Source of the DNA: Diadema setosum
Taxonomy: Eukaryota; Echinodermata; Echinoidea; Diadematoida; Diadematidae
Assembly: GCF_964275005.1 (NCBI RefSeq)
Contig: NC_092686.1
Span: 44,266,333 to 44,330,332 of the forward strand
DNA: 64,000 nt
Direction: 5' to 3'
The notes below the pieces were generated by a model. The model was not told where the DNA came from. It searched no databases and was given only the letters and a program-made list of their open reading frames with translations. Positions 108-59,869 of this stretch are shown piece after piece. Each line of letters opens with the position of its first letter. Within the stretch, counting starts at the first letter, position 1. A program made the position numbers and the translations under genes.

Positions 108-565
108 TTACTGTAAGTGCCCCTTGAAGCTCTCTAACGATGCTAGTTTATTACCAGCCATGGGAGTCCTTTATACAAAAAATGAGTTCTTATATGTATC
201 TGTTCTTGCGAATGGTATTTGAATTTGCATGTCGTTTTTCCTCCTTGTTTTCCTTTCTGACAAATATGTGATGTACTTATTGGCTGATATCCCCACCATT
301 CCCTGCTGTATCTTGAATAACACGGTCAATCTGTTCCTTTCTGTTTCCAGTGTTTCCCATTTCAACTCTGCTAACATCTGTGTGACACTGCTACTCTTGC
401 TGTAGTTTCCTAAGCAGAAACATGCTGCTTTCCTTTGTATCCTTTCCATTAACTTCTCTATCTGGCCTATCTTGTGTGGGTCCCAGGCGCAAGATGCGTA
501 CTCCAGTATGGGTCTTACTAGTATCTTCTTCTGGTATTGCTGCATTCTCTCAAGCCTTGTATTAA
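108..565 (-). mobile_element. 3' end of a non-LTR retrotransposon (LINE) ORF2
   Basis: Read on the minus strand this encodes the region after the reverse-transcriptase catalytic core of a CR1/Jockey-like LINE. An open stretch of about 124 codons contains LVRPILEYASCAWDPH, then RIQRKAACF and LKWETLETERNRL, the usual C-terminal landmarks of such ORF2 proteins. The reading frame breaks near 171. The natural ending (LESFKGHLQ followed by a stop at 108-110) is in another frame, so the copy has at least one frameshift. Nothing of the endonuclease or catalytic RT core is visible, so it is a 5'-truncated dead copy. The clade assignment is by pattern only. Confidence 0.85.
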
Positions 566-1687
566 TACTATCATATGAAGGTGGACCTGTCCTTCCCTAT
601 ATTATCGACCTATAACTTTTACACTCATTTAGACTGCTAGAAGAGCAATGTTACTTTGAGTACACTATCACATTTAGTAAACTTCTGCACTGCTCAGCAT
701 TTCAAGGTATTTAATTCTACCAAATAGATAATTAAACATTGGTTTTTCTCAGTAACAATTAGGAAAATCATGAAATGTAAAGTTAAACTGGATGAAAATG
801 CCCTCTTTCTCATTTCTACACAAATCCCCATTGCTATGATCAGTCACCTCTTTCACTCTGAAGCTATGACCTTGGGCCTGATAAGTTTTTACACTTTTCC
901 AAGGTTTTCACTGAACCTTTTAACTTAAAAAGGGCTATTTCTACTAGGGCCAAATAATAAAATCCACTAACCACTAGCACTAGGCTCTATTAGTAATTGA
1001 CCTGGCATTTCAACCGTTACGGGATTAAAACCGGCCAAGCATTACTGATCATGCATGTTCCACATCAATATGATTAAAACAACAACTGACTACAGTCTAG
1101 CCCTACAGAAAAAGTCCTGCACAAAATGTACCAGGTAAGCTTTTTATTCACTGTCCTTTTCAATTCTTTTCCCCCTTCTATTTCAGGAAGATATTTGAGC
1201 TCTCCCACTTCTCTTATAGTCTTATTCAACAGCTGCTCAGTCAGATTAAAACACGCCAACCGTAACAAGATTTTTTTTTTTTTAAAGTCAAACACAAAGG
1301 CATAGATGTTCGATGTCACACCACTCACACACAAGTTTTAAATGAGGCAAGTTTTGTTGCCCTGCCTCAATCTTACTAATGCTATTGAAGAATCCAATTA
1401 AGTACCGTTATCAATCAGTAGAACATAGCCAGAGCTTGCGGCTTTAGAAACTGAAGTATAAACGGAAACAGCTACTAAAGCACACAATAATAAGAGGCCT
1501 AGGGGCCTACCCAATTCGTCAAATTGTGTGAGATTATGGACAAGGGTCATACATAGCAATATTTTACACATAGGGGATTGACGACTCCGATATATCTCTT
1601 GCTTTCCCCGGGACTCGTGGGAGATCTGGAGACTAGCTAAGCAACCTGTAGCTGGAGGTGGGGGAAATGGAAAATAAAAACTGTTAC
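566..1687. other. AT-rich stretch with no assignable gene
   Basis: No recognisable gene. A minus-strand open stretch at 1074-1334 (86 codons) reads like protein in its middle (EQLLNKTIREVGELKYLPEI), but I see no family match or convincing splice pair. It could be an unidentified exon of a gene leaving the window to the left, or chance. Confidence 0.4.
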
Positions 1688-5945: not shown

Positions 5946-8900
5946 ATGGATTTCCTCAAGGCAGAGATAGCGAGGAAGAAGAAGCAATTGGAGCAGACAA
6001 ATCTTGTTGGCGGCGTAAGTACCTAGTATTCTTAGTGGAACCACAATAGAAACTCAGTTTTCGAACCTGTTTTTGTGTATAATCCCAGTGTTATGGCGGA
6101 AGTGCGATGCTGTTTCGTAGTCCCTAACGTGTCTTTTCGTGTAAGCGGAAAACAATGCCCTTTGCAAAGCTTTTAAGTGAAGTGTCGTTAGTACTATTAA
6201 ACTAGTTAGGTCCATTGCATTGAATGAAAATGTGTGAGCACGTTTCATAGGCTTTCGTAGTTGAATGCTGTGATGTTGTATCCTTATGAACTTGTAAACT
6301 TGCATTGTATACAGTAGGCGCGGGCGGCGGCTAATTATCAGGTTTGTTTGCATGCAACAGCAACATTCAGTGTCCATCACTGTTGTGTTAAGACACAGGT
6401 CACTGGCATCAGCGATCAGACTAGACTCTAGCTAGTCTACTGTAATAATGGCATTTGTCATTGACATTCAGCCGACATTGATACATATTAGTTACAAACG
6501 ATCAACAACACGACCATCAATGCAATGCCGCATCATCGTGATCATCAGTGATCATGACATTAATCATCTTGAACCTTGAATGGATAATCACTGCATCAGC
6601 TCATAGAAAGCTAAACTGGGATGAACTGTGCTATGACGACATTGGCCAACGGTGTGTTTAAATGAAAGTGTTATAATTTAACTATTTACAATAAAGATAT
6701 TAAAATAGCATGTGTGAGTGTAAAAAGTTAAAGCAAGTTACCCACTTTTCGACCGCCTAAATTGCGGAAGCAAAATAGCATGCATGATTCGAACGCCTGC
6801 GCTGCAATCATCGTTTGAACACCTGTGCTCTTTGTTCGACCCCATATGTCCGTGCTTCGACATTCCCAATGTACTTACCGCGCCGTGCGCTCGCCCTGCC
6901 TATGAATGGATTAGCGCGCGTGCCACGCGCGTGCGAAACTGTATACATCGCACTATGAGCGTGCGGTACTCCATGTACTCCACGCTGTGCGAGAGATTCA
7001 ACGCATACATAACATGTTGCGATCGAACCATGGCGATACTGCAAATTCTGACACGGGTGGCATGCAAAATGTAAATATCGCATAAACGCTCAAGTTATCT
7101 CAGAAACTGCTGCCATTGTGGCTGTAGGTGTACATGCTGTACAGATTCAGTGCAGATAAATGGACTAGTAACTTTGAAACTTGGAATGAAACGAGTCTAT
7201 AATGTGTTGCTATGCAACTTTACTTACCCGTTGAACTGCTTATGCCAGCTGACCCAGGAGGGTCGCGACAATGATTTCGGGGGTCCGGCGACGTGGCCCA
7301 ACATTGTGCTCTTCGGAACACGTGTGGAGGTAGTTGCATGGTTTGAATTTCGCACTTGATTTGCGCCATTTTTTATTCATGAATTCGGGGAGTTTTTATT
7401 CGTAAGAGTGGTCTTTTCATGGAAACGATCGAATCAAGGGTGACTTGCTTCAGATAAAAATCAGGCTGTCAGGCTTACAGCATTTTGGACCCTACAGCAG
7501 GAGGTTGCATCCTTGTGATGATTGGTAGGGCAGCCTTCTGGAAGGTATCAACAGTACAAAGTTTGTAGGTGCAGTGACAGCATTGCTTGGAAGGTGGTTC
7601 CAGATAAATACAGTACGTGGATAGAAGGAATATTTGTATGGGTCAAGTGAAGCTTCTGGTATCATGTATTTGAGCTTGTGGTCATGTCTGTTGATATAAG
7701 GGGCTGGAGAGATGGAGGGCAGAAGTGAGATGTTGACAAGGTTGTAGTGGACTTTGTAGAACATGGTGCATTGTGCAGCAAGGCGTCGTGTGTGTGTGCA
7801 GTGTGTCCCATCCCAGTTTGGTTACAAGAGGTGTAGAGGAAGTACCCCATCTGTAATCATGGTGAACGAAGCAAGCAGCTGCTTTTTGGACTCCTTCAGG
7901 GCCTTGTACTGTGTTGGTGTAGTATGGATTCCATGCCTCTGATCCATATACTCTAGCTGTGGATGAACAAGCATTTGATATGCCCTGTTTTTGACAACTT
8001 TGGAGCCTGGGGATAATGTTTGTCGAAGGAGACCAAGAGTTCTGTTTGCTTTTTGACGAATGGCCTGGCAGTGTGTAGTCCAGCAAAGATCTTTTGAGAC
8101 AGTGACCCCCAAGTACTTGGTATTCTTGGACTCTGAGTATGATCTCCTCAAGGAGCTTGTATTCGCAGAGCGAAGGTTTCTGTTTTCTGGTAATAGATAA
8201 AAGTCATAAGGGCTAGACTATGCCCATAGAATAACATGAAGACAAGAAGAAAATAATAAATTTTTACCTTGTTAAATGCTGGCAATTGATCTAGCTCCAT
8301 ATCTAGATAGATCTAGATCTAGTTTGTAGTACTGAAGCAGAAGTGCGACACTGAATTTAAAGTAGCTAATTTTGATACAAACACTCAAACTGTAGGTAGA
8401 GGCGTCTACTCTAGATAATCTAGATGAAGTTAACAATTACATGTCTCCATACGTGATTGGGTGAGTTAGAGCTAGGTAGATATCAGCCTTGCTTTATATT
8501 CAATGCCAACGGATCGCGTGCTTGTATTTTCGCGCTAGTTTCTTGTTGCGCGAAATGCACGAAAATTTCAACACCACAAAAATTTCCTCTTTTACAGTAG
8601 TGCACAAAACAGCTTCCCTCCTTTTATTGTTATGCCCCAATGTTTCAAATATCCCTACCCCCCCCCCATTGATCAGACTCATCTTCTCTTTAAACCCACT
8701 TTATTTAATTTTCTTTTGCCTTCTGCTCTTCTAGCAGAATTAAACATGCCTGAAATTAATTTTCAAATGAATGTGTAAAGGAACACATTACCCTTGGCCT
8801 TGGTGTAACTGTAAACAGCTAAGTTGAAAAGAATCACAGATTGGCCTGGACTATTGAAAAGTAGCATGTGCTCTTCTACATACATGTAATATGCTGTACA

Positions 8901-11900
8901 GTAGAACCTCGTTTATGATTATTATACAAATAATTCAAGGAGGTCAGATTTAGCGAGATACCTGATCTAACGAGGTAAGTTTGCCCACCCCATCCCTTTA
9001 ATATTCTTTTGTTTTTAGCCCTGATATACAGTAGCAAGGAAATTTCTGTTGTCCCAAGCAGCTCATTATAATGAGATTCCTCTTTACCAGAGAATTTTTC
9101 TCTACATTACATCTAGATCCATGATCCCATAATTTACTTTGTACTCCCTACATAGATAATGACTTTTTGATGATAAACAATCTGCTGTAGCATGTCTGTA
9201 TTATGTGTCCCATTTTGCTGCATGATGCTCCATGTGTTGATATTTGTAACAGATTCGATCAGAATTGAAAATTGACCTTTTGAATTCTTTTATTGTATGA
9301 CTTACAGCAGGATACCATATTTTCCCATCTTTGTCCTGATTGCAGGATACAGGTAAAAAGACCTTTAAGAGGGGTGATCTCATGGCCAAGCAGGAAGAAG
9401 AGTACTGGAAGAAACATAAAGTAGGTGGAAATGCAGAAAAACAAGAATATTATATGTCTGTATGCTCTCTTTGTTTGACACTACAGCATGGACATCACAT
9501 GATTATCCAGCTCCATGAGTTTAGTGATTTTTTTTTTTTAATCATAGAGTTATCAAGTGTATATTTAGTACAGTGTGGGAAGGGTGGTCCTATTTTTTTT
9601 TTCCTACAAACATTGTGCAGTCCTTTTTCAATTCGAATCACATTGATCTAAATCCAGAAGAATGAGTAGAAAATTTCTATATTAATACAAATTCCTGCAT
9701 GTATATATGTATATTGTAGATATATCTATCATGTTTTTCTATCTTCTTTATTATTGTTGTCATAATTTTAGCCAACATAAAGTTCATACCAATCATTAGA
9801 TAATGTTCTTATCAGTATCTCAAACTGTGTATTGATATGTTTGGGGGTCATATATTTTTTTTTTCTTTTCTTTTCTGCCCAGTCACATACAGTTGTTATG
9901 AGTGGATTGTGTGAAGGCATCACAATAATTTTTAAAAGAGTATTTTGCCTACTTATGTAAAGAATCAAATCAATTTGGAACAATCCATTAGAGTTACTGA
10001 CTTGTTATGTTGTGAGTTCAAATATTGCTGTTACAAACTGTACTTTGTTATTGTTGTTACATGTCAAGGGCCTTGAAGGAGGGGAGGGGGGGGGGGGGCT
10101 GGGGGACTGCCCCCCCTTCCCTAACAAAAAAGTCCTGTGGTACTCCCTGTGGTACTTGTCGGTACCACACAATGTACCACACACTTGTAATGTTACCACA
10201 GGAACTGTGTGGTACTGTACCACAGGCTTGTAGGGTACTCCCTGTAGTACTTGTCAGTACCACACAATGTACCACATAAATAAATGTTACCACAGGAACT
10301 GTGTGGTACTGTTTTACAGGCTCATGTGGTACTCCCTGTGGTACTGGTTGGTACTGCACAATGTACCACACAAATATATGTTAACACAGGAACTGTGTGG
10401 TACTGTGTCACAGGATCGTGTGGTACTCTGGGATGTACCACAGGGCAGTACCACAGGACATTACCACAGGAAAGTTCCACAGGACAGTACCACAAGACAG
10501 TATACACACAAATTGTCCTGTGGTATTTTGGGATGTATACCACACAACAGTACCACAGGACAGTACCACATGAATTGTCCTGTGGTATTTTGGGACATAC
10601 CACAGGAGAGTACAACAGGAAAGTACCACAGGATAGTACCACAGGACAGTAGCACACGACTTGTTCTGTGGTATTTTAGGACGTACCACAGGACAGTACC
10701 ACAGGGCAGTTCCACAGGACAGTACCACAGGAAAGTACCACAGGATAGTACCACAGGACAGTACCACAGGAATTGTCCTGTGGTATTTTGGGACGTACCA
10801 CAGGACAGTACCACAGGATGGTACCACAGGACAGTACCTCACGACTTGTCCTGTGGTATTTTGGGACGTACCACAGGACAGTACCACAGGGCAGTACCAC
10901 AGGAAAGTACCACAGGATAATGCCACAGGACAGTACCACACGACTTGTCCTGTGGTATTTTGGGACGTACCACAGGGCAGTACCACAGGACAGTACCACA
11001 GGAAAGTACCACAGGATAGTACCACAGGACAGTACCACACGACTCGTCCTGTGGTATTTTGGGACGCACCACAGGACAGTACCACAGGGCAGTACCACAG
11101 GAAAGTACCACAGGACAGTACCACACGACTTGTCCTGTGGTATTTTGGGACATACCACAGGACAGTACCACAGGAATTGTCCTGTGGTATTTTAGGACAT
11201 ACCACAGGACAGTACCACAGGACAGTACCACAGGATATTACCACAGGACAGTACCTCACGACTTGTCCTGTGGTATTTTGGGACGTACCACAGGACAGTA
11301 CCACAGGGCAGTACCACATGACAATACCACAGGGCAGTACCACAGGACAGTACCACAGGACAGTACCACAGGAAAGTACCACAGGATAGTACCACAGGAC
11401 AGTACCACACGACTTGTTATGTGGTATTTTGGGACGTACCACAGGGCAGTACCACAGGACAGTACCACAGGATAGTACCACAGTACAGTACCACACGACT
11501 TGTCCTGTGGTATTTTGGGACGTAACACAGGACAGTACCACGCGACTTGTCCTGTGGTATTTTGGGACGTACCACAGGACAGTACCACAGGGCAGTACCA
11601 CAGGGCAGAACCACAGGACAATACCACAGGAAAGTACCACAGGATAGTACTACAGGACAGTACCACATGACTTGTCCTGTGGTATTTTGGGACGTACCAC
11701 AGGACAGTACCACACGAATTGTCCTGTGGAATTTTGGGACGTACCACAGGACAGTACGACAGGAATTCCTGTGGTAATTTTCGATGTATACCACAGGAGA
11801 GTACCACAGGAATTGTCCAAAATCCCACAGGAAAATCATAATATGGTGCTATTCCAGACAGAAGTACCACACAGCAAATTAAATTCGTAAGTACCACAGA

Positions 11901-14900
11901 AAAATGCTACAGGATATTCTTTTTTTTTTTCTTAACATTTTATACCAGAGGACTATCACATCAGGAGAATATCAAACAGCAGTACCACACAGGAGTACCA
12001 CACAGGAAAATTGTAAGGCAGAATCAACTGAAATTTATAACAAAATTACAAACAAAAAAGCACATATTAATATTCCTCAATTAATTGATAGATGAGTTAT
12101 GCTGTGAATTATAACAATTGATTTGCCATTACTTATCCTGTCCTATACTCCTACAGTATTACCTATTTAGTGAAAGTGCTGATGTAAAGCATGAGAAATT
12201 TCATAAGGACTTCTGTGGTACTCCTGTGGTACTCCTGTGGTACTCCTGTGGTACAAATTTTTACATAGCTCATGAATATTCATAAAAAGCACTCTAGATT
12301 TTAGAAAATACATATATGACTTAAAAAGTCAAAGTATTAATGATGGAACTTACTTTGAACTTTATGAAAGATTGTCTAATTATGTTATGTTATTCCTAAT
12401 ATCATAGATATTGTTATGAAAGTGTAATTTCATATCTTGATAATAAAGTATAATCGAGTTAGTAACCATGCCTTAATGCTTTACGGATAGACGGCCATAT
12501 ATATATGTACTGAGAGGGTCGATGGCTAGCTAGGAATAGAATATGACTATATAGATCTATTATAGGACTAGATTGGCACTTGGCCATTAGACTCTCGTTT
12601 GAGGTTATATGTTAGGAGTAGGACAGGTTATTAAGTAGGGCCATGTTTGTCCTAAAATCCATCACTCACCTATCAGAAATATTCCTTGAAATGTGGCTAA
12701 AGTCTCCCAGATTTTTTTTTTTTCGATCTATCCTGTGTGGTACTCTCCTGTGGTACCATGGAAATGCTGTGTGGTACTGCCCTGCGGTAATGCTGTGTGG
12801 TAATGATCGACCTGTGGTACTGTCCCAAAATACCACAGGACAGTTCCTGTGGTACTGTTCTGTGGTACTAGTCCTGTGGTACTGCCCTGTGGTACGTAGC
12901 AAAATACCACAGGAATTCCTGTGGTACTGCCCTGTGGTACGTCCCAAAATACCACAGGAATTCCTGTGGTACTGTCCTGTGGTACCGGTCCTGTGGTACT
13001 TTCCTGTGGTACTGCCCTGTGGTACGTCCCAAAATACCACAGGAATTCCTGTGGTACTGTCCTGTGGTATGTCCCAAAATACCACAGGACAATTCCTGTG
13101 GTACTGTCCTGTGGTACTTTCCTGTGGTACTGTCCTGTGGTACCGTCCTGTGGTAATTACCACAGGAGTACCACAGGACTTTTTTGTAAGGGTTTCTATC
13201 TGGTTAAAAAAAAAATGCCCTGAAAAATGCTCCAAGTCCCCCTGCATATGTGCATATAAAGGAAATGAGAATTTAATCTCAGGTAGCACAGAATGAAGTA
13301 AAATTACTCGAATTCTCACTTGTACTGTTTTTCAAAACAGATAGAGACTGCGGATGAGGAGGCAGAGAGAAAGAGGTCCCGCAAGGAGCGACTATCCAGC
13401 GATGCCATGAATGATGACCCCAACCTTGTTACCTTGTCCAGACAGGAGGTTAGTCTGTTAACACGTTTGATATCTTTGTACCGCAATACATTTGGTCCTG
13501 CTTAGTAAGTAGGCTCTAATACAGCAAACATGTTGTTAGCTTGGCTTATTATCTTTTCAATGCCTAACAAAATGAGATGACATGTAGTTTCTGAGATCAG
13601 AGAGAGTAGGATGCCATCATGTGACACCAAACTGTGATGGTTTTAAGAGTGAAAATAGCGAGCTTTATATCTGCAACACCAACATTAACCCTATTCTAAC
13701 TGGGCTCTTTGAGACCAAGTTTTTACTGGGGGGGGGTCAATTTGACCACCCCCCCCCCCTTCAGATCTCAGCCGTCAATCGCGTGATCGCCACGAAATTT
13801 TGCCTGAAGATAGAGCTGGATGTCAACTACAAGATTACATGGTCATACAATACAAAAATATTTCCTTTCTATTTTTAATAAATTAATTATGCAAATTTGT
13901 GCATGAAATCATATTTTCACCTATAACTCCATTAAAAAGACTGGAGGATTGCTAAATTTTTGTGTCAGAATTCCTCAAGACACATCAAACAGTTTTTGTG
14001 TAAAAAAAATAGCACAATCAATATCAATTTCTTTTGTTTTCTATTGTTTTGTTAATTTCTTATGTATTTTATTGTTTATTCGACCTTTTGTTTTTTATTG
14101 TTTTTTTTGCCAAAATTTGTTGCAGGCACTTTTTCAGGCTTATCTACACTAGAATTGATTAATTTCAATGGTTAAAAGTTGAAATAATCTTATTTATATC
14201 AATTTAACCAAAAAACACAATTTGCATTGGATTTGCACACGATATCATGAATTTGAGCTGTTTTTGGGTTGACATGCATATGCAAAACATTACGTAACTT
14301 CAGAACGGTGTACCCGAACATCACAAATTTGGTCTCAAAATATGCGGGAGACTTCAATGAAAAAAGTCGTGAAACGAGGCGGCAAAATCTTTGCGCGTTG
14401 CGAAATCGTGGCGCAAAACGTCGAGGGGGGGGGGTCAATTTGACCCCCCCCCAGTTAGAATAGGGTTAAAGATGACACTACTAGGCTAAAAATGGTGTTC
14501 TGCACATGCATGAGACAGCTGTTTCCATTGTTCAGCCAGGGAGGCTGCGTCATCCTAGCATTTGCGGCATAGATCTAGAGCTTGCTAGTTTCAAAGAGCA
14601 GAGGATTTTCTTGCAAGTGATAGCTACTGGTCAATATTCATGATATTCACACTCGGAAAAAAACAGAAGCAAGAAAGCACAGTTTTATTGCTTATTTCCT
14701 TCCTTTGAGTGTGGGAAATGGGTAAGGGTTTGCGCCCATGCTTCTTTTATCAAGTTTTTTTGGACATGTCTCTGAGTGCCCCTACTGCAGACAGCAGTTT
14801 GACAGGGTGATGCTCTTTAATATCTAATGGGAAGGTCTATATTTTTCTTATGAAATTCATGAGTGTTGGTACACTTTCTAACTTTGCATAGATTTTCTTA

Positions 14901-17900
14901 CCCTGTTTCCAAACACTTGAAGCAGCATTTTTGCAGTATGCAATATTTTAAGAAGCTGGCCAAAGCTAAAATGGCAGCAACATTCAGCCAGTCCATCACA
15001 ATGCACTGCTAATGTTTTTGGAGTCAATTTATGAAGGGTCCTTTTATGTGGCTTAGCATGTGCTGGAAGTGTATTATGCATTTTACCTCACAGGTTCAAC
15101 ATTTGTCTTCTTGCAGGTGATACGACGACTGAGAGAACGAGGAGAACCGATCAGACTCTTTGGTGAGACCGACACAGAAGCATTCTTCAGGCTTCGGAAA
15201 ATTGAAATGTTAGCTCCAGAGATTAATAAGGTAATCAAAGATACATGCTGTAATATTGGTGCACATTGCAGCTTCTTCGGTCAAAGTACTTGCTTTGTTA
15301 GCAAATTTATTATTTTGTTTTATATGTTTTGTTTGTTTGTTTGTTCATTTTGCTCCCCTGTCCATCTGTAAATTGTTAAGGCTTCATATGTATTCCTTCA
15401 TTGTGTTTCATGTGATGTGTTGCCGTTGATACTTTTACTGAAGCTTGCATTAACCCGTTGAGGACGAGTCCCGAGTATAATCGGGCAGGGATCTGTGGGA
15501 AATGTGTGTTGTAGCAAAATCAGTCCATCCAAAACGGGTTAAAAACAGAGAGATTGTATAAAAGACCCGGTAGTGTGGGGATTCATGGGTGGCCCAATTC
15601 ATTCACTGCCCATTGGGGTACTGTACATTAGAAACCACAAATAGCACCAGTCAGCGAATATACACATGCATCAAGTTTATGTGTATCGGTAATGGTCGAC
15701 TCCAGTCAAAATTCTTTGGCTGTGTGTCTACTTACACAGAAAATTGTGATAAAGCTATGCACAATTTATTGGGGGAATTTTTGGATATATCCAAGCCGAA
15801 CCAGCCTCTCATTCCATGGTATCCCACCGCTACCAGATTTTTAACATGGACACATGAGCAAGTGAGCTTTTTGAAATGCATTGAAATCTGGCAGTGCTGT
15901 TATTTCAGTGCAGTAAGAGAAGCTATCTGTTGGAACTTGTTTGAACAAAGTAGCTCTCTTTGTAGGCCCCCAAATTATTTTTTGTGTTTATCACCCTTTT
16001 GCGTTCCAATTTCAGGGTCTGAGGAACGACTTCAAGGAGGCCATGGACAAGGTCGACCAGCAGTACCTGGAGGAATTGGTGAAGGCGCAGGGAGAAGATG
16101 TTCCAACCAGTGCCTACGACATCAAGTACGACGATGACGGCAACACCATTGACACCATCCTCCAAATGGCAGAAGGGATGGGCAAGGGTGACGAAGAAGT
16201 GGACAATAAACTCGTCCTGGTCTATCTGAAGGTAAGGATGAGTTGGTGTTCGGCTTAACCAAGTACTCAGTATGCCCAGAGTTGTAATCTTCAGTTTTCT
16301 TGTTGTGCTGTGGAGTTGTTCAAGAGAGAAACCCTTCATAGGTACATTATTATTACATTCTTGTAAGTGGAAACTTCATTTTCAGTGGCCAGAATGTCTG
16401 TGTTAATTTAAATTCAATCTCATTCTGAAGCTCGATCACAGCTATGTACCTAATGTCAGATATGATATGTGAGTCATGATAGAGCAATATGTGAATCGTG
16501 TGTGTGTGTGTAAATAGTGTAGAGGAGCTGATATCATCTCTTGCATGAAATTGTGTGTGTCGGCACACATTGCAGTTGTTGTGTGATCTGTACTGTGCCA
16601 TACATTTGAGTTGGATATGTTCCAAGTGGCACTAAATCTATTTTGAAAACTTTGAAAAAATAAAAAAGACTTAATTCAAACAAGGGCTTTAACTTGTTAG
16701 TATTTTCTAAACTCTTATTGTTTTGTTTGTGATTGCGATAGTGTTGATTTGGGTTGGTTGTTATAAGAAATATATTAATTTTGTATGCACCTTTCTGCTT
16801 GTTTATTATAGTTTTTGTTGAAAGGATGGGCTCAGGAACTGAACTCCAGACCTGAAGATCTCAAGCGGAGTACAAAAGGCAGACTGCAGAGTGCTACATA
16901 CAGCCAGACCTCAGCATATCTCAGACCACTTCTCAACAAACTCAAGAAAAAGGTATAGCGTGTTGATAGAGTTGGTTGATGCCTTCATCTCATCAAAGTT
17001 AATTTTTTGCACGAGGCATCCTGACTTATATTCAATACATATTTACAAATTTGTACTGTGATAAATGCAAAGAAAGCAAAAATTTCTTGGAAATGTTTGA
17101 TCAACTGAAAGTGTCATAGGGTTCTTATTAATTATATAACTTATATGTAATTAATAAATTAACCTGACTTTGAAAGAACATTTAGAGGTTATGACTCTCC
17201 TAAAAACCAACCAAATCTTGCACTGCCCCTTGTCATAAATGAATGAAGGTCTTATTCTCTAAATTTCCTTGATCTTACAAGAACATGTGTGACATTTTCT
17301 CTGCACCATATGTTGAATCATGTTCATTGTGCGAGTTGTTACTCAGGTGTATTACAGAGCCATTTATGTTGAGAGAACTTGCTTTCAACCCCTCTCCCAC
17401 AGAGTTTACCATATATGGAAGAACCTCTTTGTAACCAAAGACTTCACAACCATGACAAATGCTTGTTTCAGGTTTCCTACTACGAATATCAGCGTACAAA
17501 AGCCAAGAAATACAAAGAATTGGGACCCGCGAAATCACCTTGTATTAAATAGGGCTTTGTTATATCTGACCTCTTAACAATGCAGTTTCCGCAGTATCTC
17601 ATTATATATGCACTAAGACTTACCCCCTGTAGGTCATGTAATGTGAGTCTAGATCCAGCATGGAAAAAATCTTTTTTTTCTTCTTCTTCTTCATGTGATT
17701 GATTCTTTGTTTCTCTGTATTCAGACTCTTTCAGCAGACATCTTGGACAGCCTTGTTGCCATTGTGAGATTTATGCTGCAGCGAGAGTATGTCAAGGTGA
17801 GGAGAAAATTTAAAACTACTTGCTTCACATCATCAATGAAATCATGCTTCCTCCCAACTCTTCATTGTCCTTTGCAATTTCTAGTATATGTTTTCATTTC

Positions 17901-20900
17901 CATGCAGTACTTCATATAATGGCCATGTGCTGTATTGACTAGAGTTTGGATTCTATGTGGCCATGACTAGGGAAGCAGAAGATCTGCTTGTAGATCCCAC
18001 TTTTCAACATCCAGTGTAAACACATTGCAAGAGGAGTTAAAACAATCATATAAAGTGATGTAGATCATAAAAAATTTTAGATGTTGGTATTGTAAAGTTC
18101 TCTGTTGGCCAATTTTGGTTTTGTTGTCCCCGCCGAACGAGTTCGAGCAGGGGACTATGAAACGGGCTCCGTACGTGTGTGTGTCCGTGTGTCCGTCCGT
18201 CCGTCCGTCCGTCCGTCCGTGTGTCCGTCCGTCCGTCCGTGTGTCCGTGTGTGCGTCCGTGTGTGATCAAAATCTTCAATTTGCTACTTCTCTGTCATTT
18301 ATGAGCCAATTTTGATTCTGTTTGCTTTATATGATAGCACTACATGGGAGCTTTGAAACTTCTACACAGAATTTCAGTCGTGACCTTTGACCTTGACCTT
18401 TGACCTATATTGTACATTTTGCTACAAAATGCTACTCCTTCGCCATTTCTAACCCGATTTCGATTCCGTTTGCTTTATGTGATGGCACTAGGTGAGGGCT
18501 TCAAAACTTCTACACAGAATTTTGACCTTTGACTTCTTTGACCTTTGACCTTGATTTTTTGACCTATATTGTACATTTTGCTACAAAATGCTACTCCTTC
18601 GCCATTTCTAACCCGATTTCGATTCCATTTGCTTTATGTGATGGCACTAGGTGAGGGCTTCAAAACTTCTACACAGAATTTTGACCTTTGACCTTGATTT
18701 TTGACCTATATTGTACATTTTGCTACGAAATGCTACTCCTTCGCCATTTTTAACCCGATTTCAATTCCGTTTGCTTTATATGATGGCACTAGTTGAGGGC
18801 TTCAAAACTTCTACACAGAATTTTGACCTTTGACTTCTTTGACCTTTGACCTTGATTTTTGACCTATATTGTGCATTTTGCTACAGAATGCTACTCCTTC
18901 GCCATTTCTAACCCGATTTCGATTCCGTTTGCTTTATGTGATAGCACTAGGTGAGGGCTTCAGAACTTCTACACAGAATTTTGACCTTTGTCTTCTTTGA
19001 CCTTTGACCTTGATTTTTGACCTATATTGTACATTGGCTACAAAATGCTACTCCTTCGCCATTTCTAACCCAATTTCGATTCCATTTGCTTTATGTGATG
19101 GCACTAGGTGAGGGCTTCAAAACTTCTACACAGAATTTTGACCTTTGACTTCTTTGACCTTTGACCTTGATTTTTTACCTATATTGCACATTTTGTTACA
19201 AAATGCTACTTCCGGCGGGGACATATGTTACGCACCGCGTAATTTCTACTTTTCCTTGTTGTTGTTGTTATGTTATGTTGTTGTTATGTTATGTCATGTC
19301 ATGTCATGTCATATTATGTTATATAAAGGATTGGACAAACTACTACTTACATTATTATGGAAGACAAGTTTACTTTGAATGGGAGTGGAGGGATGCTACA
19401 TGGTGCTGTCTTGTAGTCTTGTAGACTTGAAGTTCTGAAGTGCTCAGATTCATCCTGAGGCTGCTTGCCATAATCAAGTTCACCACAATGAACATAATAT
19501 ACCTAAAATACATTTGTATCTTTGCATATTCAGATTAGCTAAGAGAACCAACAGAGGTAAAGATATAGAGGAGGCCAGTTAAAATACAAGAACCAAGTTC
19601 ACCTTAGAATCTAATGAAAGCAAGTAGGATAAAGATGTCAACTGTGCAACTGATTGACAACTAGATGTCAACTAGCTTGGGTGAATACCTAACACAGAAT
19701 ATTGAACAAAAGAATCAGATGTGAGGTGCAATGGATGAACACATCTGAATAGAAAAGGAATAAAATTGATCACAGAAATAGAGTTAAGGTTGATGAGAAT
19801 GGATGACAACCCAAAGACCTATACAAACTGAACTAAATACCAAACTAGAACTGGAAAAAAGTTAACATTCAGCTTAGCTGTCGAACAGGAGTTTGAAATT
19901 TTGATAGGAAAATTGATAGGAGCCCGTCATCTCATCAGGTCTTGTACCAAACCACACCAATATAGTTTCCTGTTCTTGATGGTATATGTGACATTAGTTA
20001 TGAAAAATATTTGAAAGTTGTCTCTGTTTAATCACTCATTCTGTTTTACACAGGCGAATGATGCATACCTGCAAATGGCCATCGGCAATGCCCCCTGGCC
20101 CATTGGAGTAACCATGGTGGGAATCCACGTCAGGACGGGGCGTGAAAAGATCTTCTCCAAGAATGTAGCTCGTATCCTTTGTCATTCAGTACTGGTGCTT
20201 TCTATTATTGTATACCTGTTTGATTCTCTTTTTTTCACTTCATTGCTCTTTCTATTCTTTGTTGCCATCAAATACTGCAATCTTGATCATTATTTACGTG
20301 TATATAGGGCAGTTTAGCAGCACATTAAAAACACACTCAATACAACACATAGGCTACTGTAGTAAAGTGCCTGTGCAACAATACACCATGTTTTGTCTAG
20401 TCTGTTGCGCTAACACATGTACGCTTGTGACATTTGTGAACTCTGGCTGCAAGTGCGCAAACTCTTGCTACAAGTGCAAGTCACAACTTAGTGCAGAGTC
20501 TACTTCAAATTCTGGTAACTGCTTTTTTATCTGTTTATGCCTTCGCTAGATAATCATTAAACATTGATAATAATTATGTTGGATGGTTTCATTTCATGGA
20601 ATACCAGCACATGCTAGAGCCAATATTCCTGGGTATTCCATGAAATGCCATCCAATATAATATGAATTCATATCATATCTGTGTTTTCTATGTGTTTTGT
20701 GTGTCACAACCTGATTGATCAGAGAATTTGTCCCCTCCCTACAAACTTAAAGGGATGGTATAGTTTTGGTTGAGATGGGGTCTCAGCTTTCAACTTTTTG
20801 TGAGATGATTAGAAACCACTTATGAAGTATTAAAGAGCAGACACTTCTAGAGGAATTCAAAGTTTATTTGATGAAAATCGATTTTGAAAGGCTGAGATAA

Positions 20901-28349: not shown

Positions 28350-29590
28350 TTGTCTTTTGACCCGATGAAGCTAAACATGTTAAAGCTCTACACAACCTGA
28401 TGACAGCTGCTTGGAAGAATGGGTTGGTATTTAATGCTAGGAGGAACAGCATCAAGAATCCACAGATTGAGTTGTTCGGATGTGTGTATAACAAAGCTGG
28501 CATCCATCCAGATCCAGCAAAAGCAACGGACATCATCAACTTGCCAGAACCGACTGATATTCCCGAACTAAACCAGTCTCTGGGAAAGGTTCAATACTTG
28601 GCCCCGTTTAAACCAGGCTTGTTTGACAAGACAGAGATACTTAAGGCCCTCTCCAGAAAAGACAGCAACTATTGGTGGTCTGCCTCACCCAGGAATGCAT
28701 TTGAGTAACTAAAGAGAGAAATATTGTCGCTATGCACACTCACCTACTTCGACCCTAAGAAACACTCAACGATTCAGGTTGATGCTTCCACCCAATGCAT
28801 GGGTAGACTGATGAAAGAAGGAAAACCTGTAGCCTTTGCTAGCAAGGCGCTCACATACACTGAAAGCAGGTACGCCAACATTGAATGGGAAATGCTAGTG
28901 GTTGTACAATGTATTTGGATGCACAAGATTCCATACATATGTCTATGGCTCAAAGTTTACTGTGGAATCAGACCATAAGCCTCTGGAAAACATCCATCAA
29001 AAGAACCTAGCTAGCACGCCTCCAAGATTGCAGCAGATGCTTCTATGCCTCCAGCCATACAATTTCGATCTGGTATATACAGTACATGTACATGTAGACC
29101 AAGCCCAGAAAATTACTCTCACTGATGGCTTGTCGCAACTCAACCCAGAGGAACAGCCAAGCATCGAGTTTGATGAGACGATCCATGTGATGTACGTAGC
29201 ACCAGACAGATTGAAACAGCTACAGGAGGAAACAGAGAAAAGTCTTGAACTTAGAACGCTCAAGGAGGTGATACAAAAAGGCTGGCCAGAGGAAGCGAAG
29301 AAGGCCCCCAAGGTAAGTACGACAGTACTGGTCATGCACAGATTTGCTCACAGTAGAAGATGGTGTCATCCTGAAGGGTGCAAGGATTGTCATACCCAAA
29401 CCAATACAACAGGAGATACTACATCAACTCCACAAAGGACACCAGGGGATGACATGGACCCACATCAGAGCAAGAAGCTGTGTTTATTGGGAAGGAATTT
29501 AAAAAAGACACTGAAGGTGTAATCAGCACATGTTCAACCCGCAATGAGTTTCAGCATGTACAACCCAAAGAACCTCTAACATGATCTCCC
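28350..29590 (+). mobile_element. Broken Ty3/Gypsy LTR retrotransposon fossil
   Basis: Plus-strand pieces match the pol region of Ty3/Gypsy elements in the family order: the end of reverse transcriptase, RNase H, a linker, and the zinc-binding start of integrase. No LTR pair, gag or protease was recognised. The copy is broken, with several breaks, and looks old. It is not a host gene. Confidence 0.85.
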
Positions 29591-59237: not shown

Positions 59238-59869
59238 AATGCGCATATTTGCTGTAAGATATCATGCGCATGAGTTAATAATAAAATAATTTATGCAAAC
59301 AATAAGATGCCTTTGTGTAATCATTGATTCAACTCTTTTTTTTTGGGGGGGGGGGGGGCAAGACCAAAACTTTGTCGACGGACACTTGAACTTGAACAAC
59401 ACTAGCAGTAGGGGCGCGCTATATAGCTTTAGATCGAGCGAGCGATTGGGGCAGGGGTGTTGTTGGTTGGGTCTGTGTACCCGTGTATCAACGGTATCGT
59501 ACGGTAACCCCTATGGGTGCTGTTCGTTATTCCGAAGGTTCGCTATTCCGAAGGTTCGTTATTCCGAAGGGTCGTTAATCCAAAACACGCAAATTCCCTA
59601 TACCTAGAGATTCGTTAATCCGAAATTTGTGGCGTTATTCCGAAGGTTCGTTACTCCGAAGATGGGTTAATCCGAAAATGAAATTCGGAACAATGAACCT
59701 TCGGAATAACGAATCTTAGGAATAAAGAGCCTTCGGAATAACGAACCTTCGGAAAAACGAGCTGTAACCGGCCCTATCGAATGCGCATATTTGCTGTAAG
59801 ATATTATGCGCATGAGTTTATGATAAAATGATTTATGCAAACGATAAGATGCCTTTGTGTAATCATTGA
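59238..59869. repeat. 90-bp direct repeats flanking an insert
   Basis: 59238-59327 and 59780-59869 are direct copies with about 5 differences (both start AATGCGCATATTTGCTGTAA). The 450 bases between hold a G-run unit (59345-59506) also found at 60781-60943 and a CCGAAGGTTCG block (59515-59775). Confidence 0.85.

Follow-up and report, generated by a model that had tools for sequence, protein, structure and literature searches.

Foldback and CACTA elements

Foldback transposons such as Drosophila FB and sea-urchin TU have long inverted ends built of tandem repeats. In plants, the accessory protein TNPA binds the subterminal repeats of CACTA elements. Published foldbacks are placed mostly in the Mutator superfamily, and some, for example Tetris, are described as having no known source (PMC4079207). 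Galileo is an exception, belonging to the P superfamily. Tetris, in the account of PMC4079207, and Tm1 (PMC3169594) have long inverted ends with variable numbers of tandem repeats, and the middle that these enclose has no coding capacity; they are mostly non-autonomous and duplicate 8-10 bp and mostly 9 bp, respectively, compared with 2 bp in the family described here. CACTA elements are described as carrying direct and inverted subterminal repeats that are asymmetric between the two ends (PMC8978399, PMC2613891), and a target-site duplication of 2-5 bp is given for CACTA/EnSpm (CMC) elements (PMC12730594).

The young foldback family described here can be compared with a probable source of another lineage, which bears the family's repeats as subterminal arrays. 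Since family and probable source stand side by side, the route by which subterminal repeats grow into foldback arms becomes testable, and the 35-kb relative suggests how such arms can arise.

Structure of the element in the PRPF18 intron

The window, a stretch of 64,000 nucleotides from Diadema setosum, contains an element of about 3 kb (10119-13192) that lies between TT/TT flanks in an intron of the splicing-factor gene PRPF18. Its parts are as follows.

9421..13341, forward strand: PRPF18 host intron, GT at 9421 and AG at 13340-13341, splice sites taken from the sequence and not from a transcript
10117..10118, no strand: left target-site duplication TT, from the flank reading and the 2-bp duplication throughout the family
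10119..10146, forward strand: left terminal inverted repeat CCCTAACAAAAAAGTCCTGTGGTACTCC; the first 60 bp equal the left end of the 35-kb partner (60/60)
10136..10428, forward strand: 94-bp subterminal repeat, 3.1 copies (7.8 in the 35-kb partner), from tandem repeat searches
10429..11820, forward strand: left arm, array of a 13-bp unit (about GTACCACAGGACA), inner border approximate
11821..12735, forward strand: middle, family-specific, with few repeats
12736..13192, reverse strand: right arm, 13-bp units in the opposite orientation
13165..13192, reverse strand: right terminal inverted repeat CCCTTACAAAAAAGTCCTGTGGTACTCC; the last 60 bp match the partner's right end at 59/60
13193..13194, no strand: right target-site duplication TT, from the flank reading

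The 28-bp inverted ends described in the earlier note are borne out, 10119-10146 and 13165-13192 being identical at 27 of 28 positions. The 23 bases from end position 7 onward are exact at both ends, and their count in the whole window is two (expected 0.00). TACCACA and TGTGGTA (forward/reverse) number 74/23 in the 1,702 bp of the left arm and 7/23 in the 457 bp of the right arm, but only 2/5 in the 60,926 bp of the window outside the element. These counts agree with the view that the arms consist of one short repeat in opposite orientation, except that the left arm opens with 0.3 kb of the 94-bp repeat. The 13-bp array of the left arm is interrupted by modules of an inverted unit plus TTTTGGGACG. 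This spacer, noted earlier as a particular one, occurs 12 times in the window against 0.07 expected, every time within the element (10 forward in the left arm, 2 reverse in the right arm). The 25 longest inverted pairs listed for the window measure 62-119 nt, and 24 of them join the two arms, with 87-99% complementarity. The window copy encodes no transposase. Its middle, previously called unique, is so within the window, but at least 40 copies of it, the window copy counted, exist in the genome at 97-100% identity.

The family in the source genome

Exact 25-bp ends occur 285 times in the source genome (913 Mb) and 0 times in the control. Ends of 17 bp are found at 297 places (113+86+98), of which 284 were listed for pairing. 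Among these listed ends, 218 make 109 correctly facing left/right pairs with a median of 3.1 kb, 66 have no partner, 3 adjacent pairs are in other configurations, and no facing pair of the same type lies within 60 kb. Left arms range from 1.5 to 2.8 kb (8 copies), which fits the variable arm lengths that the earlier note had proposed to look for, and right arms from 0.39 to 0.52 kb (7 measured); right arms and middle show little variation among copies. Arm lengths come from 8 of 9 copies, the ninth (L014) having failed the anchors. Another copy equals the window sequence over 2,986 bp in different flanks, and the middles of the 30 best-scoring copies, a sample biased to similar ones, differ by 1.8% on average. 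The family is young and numbers some hundred copies or more. Its mobility and foldback type, as first proposed, are supported by the exact ends, the facing pairs among those listed, the variable left arms and the 2-bp duplications described below.

Tandem-repeat arms are also what a local satellite expansion at the window site would produce, but the exact ends, dispersed copies and duplications speak against it, as do 7,023 unit pairs genome-wide against 0 in the control; of these pairs, the 100 at the head of the listing all fall within three elements. Ends and arms are dispersed over the genome and not confined to one site; the 285 ends and the 109 pairs among those listed rule out a local satellite, which is left with almost no probability. 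No other family shares the first 15 end bases (10 matches against 11 in the control), and IMG/VR (two patterns), GTDB genomes (one pattern) and plasmids gave no match.

Target sites

Insertion can take place at any sequence and leaves a 2-bp duplication. Among 36 copies read at both ends (37 rows minus one duplicate, whose flanks are the same as those of another C4 copy), a 2-bp duplication of any sequence is present in 25, against a chance level of 3.1/36 by mispairing and a mean of 3.7 and maximum of 15 in 100,000 shuffles; 11 have no exact 2-bp duplication. It is also present in 6 of 6 further large pairs. A match over 4, 5, 6 or 8 bp at the element boundary occurs in 0/36 copies. The 8-10 bp duplication of Mutator-type foldbacks is seen in none (0/36), the flanks show no piggyBac-like TTAA duplication (4-bp match 0/36), and the 36 copies lack the 3-bp TWA duplication of PIF/Harbinger.

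The window alone, with TAA at the matching place on both sides, would allow a PIF/Harbinger insertion in which CCC/GGG is target and TAA the duplicated TWA. In 36/36 copies, however, CCCTAAC stands on the left and GTAAGGG on the right, in one orientation to the element, so that the single end mismatch (left CCCTAAC, right CCCTTAC) is family-wide, and it is outside CCC/GGG that the dinucleotides match. The flanks of the 36 copies rule this reading out, and we give it practically no credence.

A probable 35-kb partner

An element of 35,127 bp (C10:38386908-38422034), flanked by CA/CA and present in only one copy, has the family's ends: left against left agrees at 60/60 and right against right at 59/60, compared with 31-32/60 crosswise. 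TACCACA/TGTGGTA reaches 42.5 per kb at one of its ends and 53.1 at the other, compared with 0.3 per kb inside the element. The partner has an open frame of 913 codons, a stop-to-stop ORF without a transcript, of CACTA/EnSpm (Transposase_21) type. PF02992 matches residues 337-454 only (E 2e-07, above cut-off), and the frame carries D340, D426, C445/C448, H656/H660 and E680, corresponding to the D, D, CxxC, HxxxH, E arrangement that PMC12730594 gives for transposases of the EnSpm type. A search for a TNPA-like protein in the partner yielded none, since none of the 8 other interior ORFs tested has a Pfam family above cut-off. Of 41 matches, 20 transposase-like places were checked, and the one in the partner is alone in having listed ends on either side; the second closest is 78 kb away from an end.

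The family is very probably a young, cut-and-paste, non-autonomous one with this CACTA/EnSpm-type element as its likely helper, and the partner probably moves it in trans. It is unlikely, though a case can be made, that the family is mobile without having the 35-kb locus as its helper, the real transposase being elsewhere or lost and two broken family members flanking the transposase gene of another element by chance. The single copy of the partner, termini that are not CAC and the frequency of nested insertions (the 23-kb and 6.2-kb C3, 24-kb C16 and 7.8-kb C6 pairs) fit that scenario, but CA/CA across 35 kb has a chance of about 1 in 16. Moreover, the right array of the partner extends to about 2.3 kb, compared with 0.39-0.52 kb for the seven foldback right arms measured, the 94-bp repeat is present in 7.8 copies in its left array but in 3.1 in the foldback form, and the foldback middle is absent. 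With differing arrays and no middle, the partner's ends are therefore not halves of the foldback form. The 2-bp duplication is itself reported for animal CACTA-type MITEs (PMC6004678).

Other large pairs were rejected as partners. The 23-kb C3 pair is a foldback copy holding about 20 kb that belong to a different element, whose ends are 39 bp long and whose flanks are AAGT/AAGT; in the 24-kb C16 pair the foldback middle adjoins the right arm; the 6.2-kb C3 and 7.8-kb C6 pairs are foldback copies with inserts. For the 7.8-kb C10 and 7.7-kb C15 pairs the reading covered the ends only.

Class assignment

The family has the structure of a foldback, with long tandem-repeat inverted ends around a middle, and its likeness to FB and TU holds to that extent. 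Unlike FB, TU, Galileo, Tetris and Tm1, it has a 13-bp unit, and its partner is CACTA-type and not Mutator-type, the class of most foldbacks; the 2-bp duplication also departs from the 8-10 bp that foldbacks usually make. With CACTA elements (maize En/Spm, soybean Tgmt*) it shares a short duplication, within the 2-5 bp range both in the 25/36 copies and in the large pairs, non-autonomous forms, and dense, short direct and inverted subterminal repeats that differ between the two ends and can fold into stem-loops. The Transposase_21 (tnp2) transposase, with its DDE residues and with CxxC and HxxxH preceding the final E, is seen in the 35-kb partner only. A large autonomous element is a further likeness, Tgmt* being given as 20.5 kb (PMC2613891) beside the 35 kb of the partner. 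CACTA elements have CAC...GTG termini, and those of plants make 3-bp duplications, whereas here CCC...GGG and 2 bp are found (CCCTAAC...GTAAGGG in 36/36 copies); because of these termini the family is not filed as CACTA in the strict sense. For the wider CACTA/EnSpm clade, CA...TG termini are given 'in most cases'. We would say that the foldback form works like a CACTA non-autonomous element, its tie to that lineage running through the partner.

Proposed origin of the arms

The foldback copies have 28-bp ends that begin with CCCTWAC, arms of 13-bp units, long on the left and short on the right, and a 0.9-kb non-coding middle. We read them as non-autonomous derivatives in which CACTA subterminal repeats have overgrown into arms, and to these repeats the 13-bp units would correspond. 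CACTA repeat arrays measure a few hundred bases, whereas here they reach kilobases and would have turned into foldback arms, with the interior replaced. The middle has no match longer than 33 bp in the partner's interior, and a simple internal deletion therefore fails to explain it. It also tells against the derivation that the partner's left array is made of the 94-bp repeat and is not a 13-bp arm. Instead, interior and genes may have been swapped for the middle and one array copied inverted, giving the foldback form, after which the left array would have expanded and contracted. The partner's transposase would cut at the ends common to both forms and mobilise the foldback copies in trans.

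More tentatively, and with the balance against it, the foldback architecture may be what CACTA subterminal repeats end up as when their growth runs away. One arm of a foldback copy holds 58-124 units, which would offer a repeat-binding helper protein more sites than the single 35-kb source does, so that unit-rich copies could outcompete the source and multiply while it stays single-copy.

Host intron and predicted RNA fold

Recent intronic and intergenic insertions of the family form a set whose long RNA hairpins could bear on editing or splicing. The transcript of the intronic copy should fold back on itself: its predicted fold has -1488 kcal/mol, against -900 to -942 in 8 shuffles, and 403 arm-to-arm pairs. 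The pairing of the arms in PRPF18 pre-mRNA suggested in the earlier note thus stands as a predicted duplex, and any RNA effect on PRPF18 is likewise inferred. The same prediction could suggest that the arms are kept because the duplex serves the host gene, in regulated PRPF18 splicing or editing. The same arms, however, are found at roughly a hundred further sites with no PRPF18 link, and selection at this site has had too little time to shape so young a copy, which makes such a role very improbable. The intron is 3,921 bp long as it stands; taking away the element and one TT leaves 845 bp. Downstream, PRPF18 encodes the PRP4-like motif (PF08799) at 15081-15200 and the Prp18 domain (PF02840) at 20051-20125.

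Structure of the element and its host intron

The foldback element lies in what appears, from the sequence, to be an intron between PRPF18-coding exons. The features concerned are:

Window 10119-13192: foldback element with TT on either side
Window 15081-15200: PRPF18 exon, PF08799, above the profile cut-off
Window 20051-20125: PRPF18 exon, PF02840, above the profile cut-off

The profile search gives no Pfam family in two further exon stretches. With splice sites predicted from the DNA, the intron would be 3,921 bp long, or 845 bp without the element. The two ends of the element are alike at 27 of 28 positions. In the left arm, a tandem repeat search finds first a 94-bp repeat (3.1 copies) and then the array of 13-bp units, and the right arm consists of the same units in opposite orientation. 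The 7-base motif, TACCACA forward and TGTGGTA reverse, occurs 74 and 23 times in the left arm and 7 and 23 times in the right arm, with 2 and 5 occurrences in the remaining 60,926 bp of the window. The 10-base spacer is present 12 times versus 0.07 expected. Among the inverted pairs listed for the window, 24 of the longest 25 link the left arm to the right. The earlier note had proposed that the arms can pair over hundreds of base pairs in the pre-mRNA; this is borne out as a prediction, because the energy predicted for the element transcript is -1488 kcal/mol versus -900 to -942 for eight shuffles, and 403 arm-to-arm base pairs are predicted. The left arm is also predicted to pair with itself (436 base pairs).

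Family size, copy structure and age

In the source assembly (912.7 Mb, 102 contigs), the exact 25-bp ends occur 285 times and the reversed control pattern 0 times. Three genome searches with 17-bp ends give 297 matches (113, 86 and 98), 284 of which are listed and were examined for pairing by neighbour and orientation. These 284 listed ends form 109 facing left/right pairs and no same-type facing pair within 60 kb, with 66 ends unpaired. The median pair length is 3,144 bp, and 92 of the 109 pairs are 2.0-4.0 kb long. Searching with the middle of the window copy finds at least 40 copies of near full length at 97-100% identity, the window copy among them (40 of 336 candidates scored). Length is 1,488-2,751 bp for the left arm (eight copies), 393-522 bp for the right arm (seven copies) and 881-914 bp for the middle (eight copies). 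Pairs of 13-bp units number 7,023 genome-wide and 0 in the control; the first 100 listed are all inside three elements and, as far as seen among the matches listed, the units are confined to elements. Two neighbouring copies on contig C4 (37818076-37821860 and 37823163-37826935) have identical 40-bp flanks, probably through local duplication.

The copy at C6:13310048 is the same as the window copy over 2,986 bp, arms included, and its flanks differ. Its right arm is interrupted by a later insertion, which from its end we take to be pogo-like. Among 30 copies, the mean divergence between middles is 1.8% (range 0-3.4%); since these are the best-scoring copies, the whole family is older than this divergence suggests. 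One copy (C3:6098918-6121950, stretches L107-L109) is only 86-88% alike. Inserted in it is about 20 kb of a different element, whose 39-bp ends begin with GAAGGGTTTG and which has AAGT on either side.

Insertion and target site

The 2 bp directly outside CCC...GGG match in 25 of 36 copies read at both ends; the chance level is 3.1 by mispairing, and 100,000 rounds of shuffling give a mean of 3.7 and a maximum of 15. The duplicated dinucleotides are of 11 kinds, and none of the 36 copies has a longer match except one of 3 bp. The duplication is missing in 11 of the 36 and present in all six large pairs outside them. The copy at C2:18.69 Mb, which lacks it, and the C2:13.10 Mb copy have about 120 bp of right flank in common (98%). 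Judged by eye, the piece that moved extends about 110 bp past the normal end and is bordered by TA at each outer side; a wrong right end is taken to have been used. The left flank of this copy, CATGGAGCTA, is found again, inverted, about 130 bp past the right end (stretches L128 and L130). PMC4079207 places most foldbacks with Mutator and gives duplications of 8-10 bp for Tetris; PMC3169594 gives mostly 9 bp for Tm1.

A probable 35-kb partner with a transposase frame

A profile search for PF02992 (Transposase_21, CACTA/EnSpm) gives three matches in the genome, one of them in a 913-codon open frame, and a protein search with the core of this frame gives 41. When 20 transposase-like places were compared with the 284 listed ends, one proved to be enclosed by a left end and a right end, in an element of 35,127 bp (C10:38386908-38422034) flanked by CA on each side. 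The outer 60 bp of this partner agree with the window element at 60/60 positions (left end) and 59/60 (right end), versus 31-32 of 60 crosswise. The 94-bp repeat lies at its left end (7.8 copies), and 13-bp units occupy about 2.3 kb at its right end. Unit density at the two ends is 42.5 and 53.1 per kb, versus 0.3 in the interior. The foldback middle is absent, a sensitive search finding pieces of 26 and 33 bp only. Other large end pairs were rejected as partners, being foldback copies that hold nested inserts.

The frame has D340, D426, CxxC at 445, HxxxH at 656 and E680, an order that agrees with the D/D/E pattern with CxxC and HxxxH given for EnSpm-type transposases in PMC12730594. At the DNA level it is present once in full length in the genome, and there is a partial relative (89%) on C6. 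In stretch L116 (3419-6157, minus strand), the frame starts with acidic 8-residue repeats (about EGDSDADP) from a 24-bp tandem repeat.

Origin of the arms

CACTA elements have direct and inverted subterminal repeats (PMC8978399). PMC2613891 describes maize TNPA as binding such repeats and being required alongside the transposase, and the repeats of soybean Tgmt* as unequal (4 in 159 bp versus 24 in 732 bp) and able to form stem-loops. The partner arrays are consistent with this layout, at a larger size, and we therefore infer that the foldback arms may be overgrown CACTA subterminal repeats. An array would be present on the left in inverted orientation, and the interior would have been replaced. 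The 13-bp units may bind a protein, and the partner protein probably moves the family. Against these last two proposals stand the single partner copy, a transposase known as an open frame alone, the lack of a TNPA-like protein among eight ORFs tested, the CCC termini and a foldback middle that does not derive from the partner interior.

A search of open-access literature gives no paper joining foldbacks with CACTA/EnSpm, and the titles and abstracts listed describe no foldback as CACTA-type. Set against that literature, a foldback with a probable CACTA-type partner would be new.

Other features of the window

Window 171-596 and 7492-8217, minus strand: ORFs that by eye resemble LINE reverse-transcriptase pieces
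Window 18309-19210: 158/301-bp tandem array containing TTTGACCTTTGACC, adjoining a TCCGTCCG repeat at 18168-18264
Window 28899-29522, plus strand: PF17917, an RNase H-like reverse-transcriptase domain, in a fragment, probably of a Ty3-type retroelement
Window 59522-59760: small mirror-repeat unrelated to the foldback element, with a 16-bp unit GTTCGTTATTCCGAAG and then its reverse complement TTCGGAATAACGAACC
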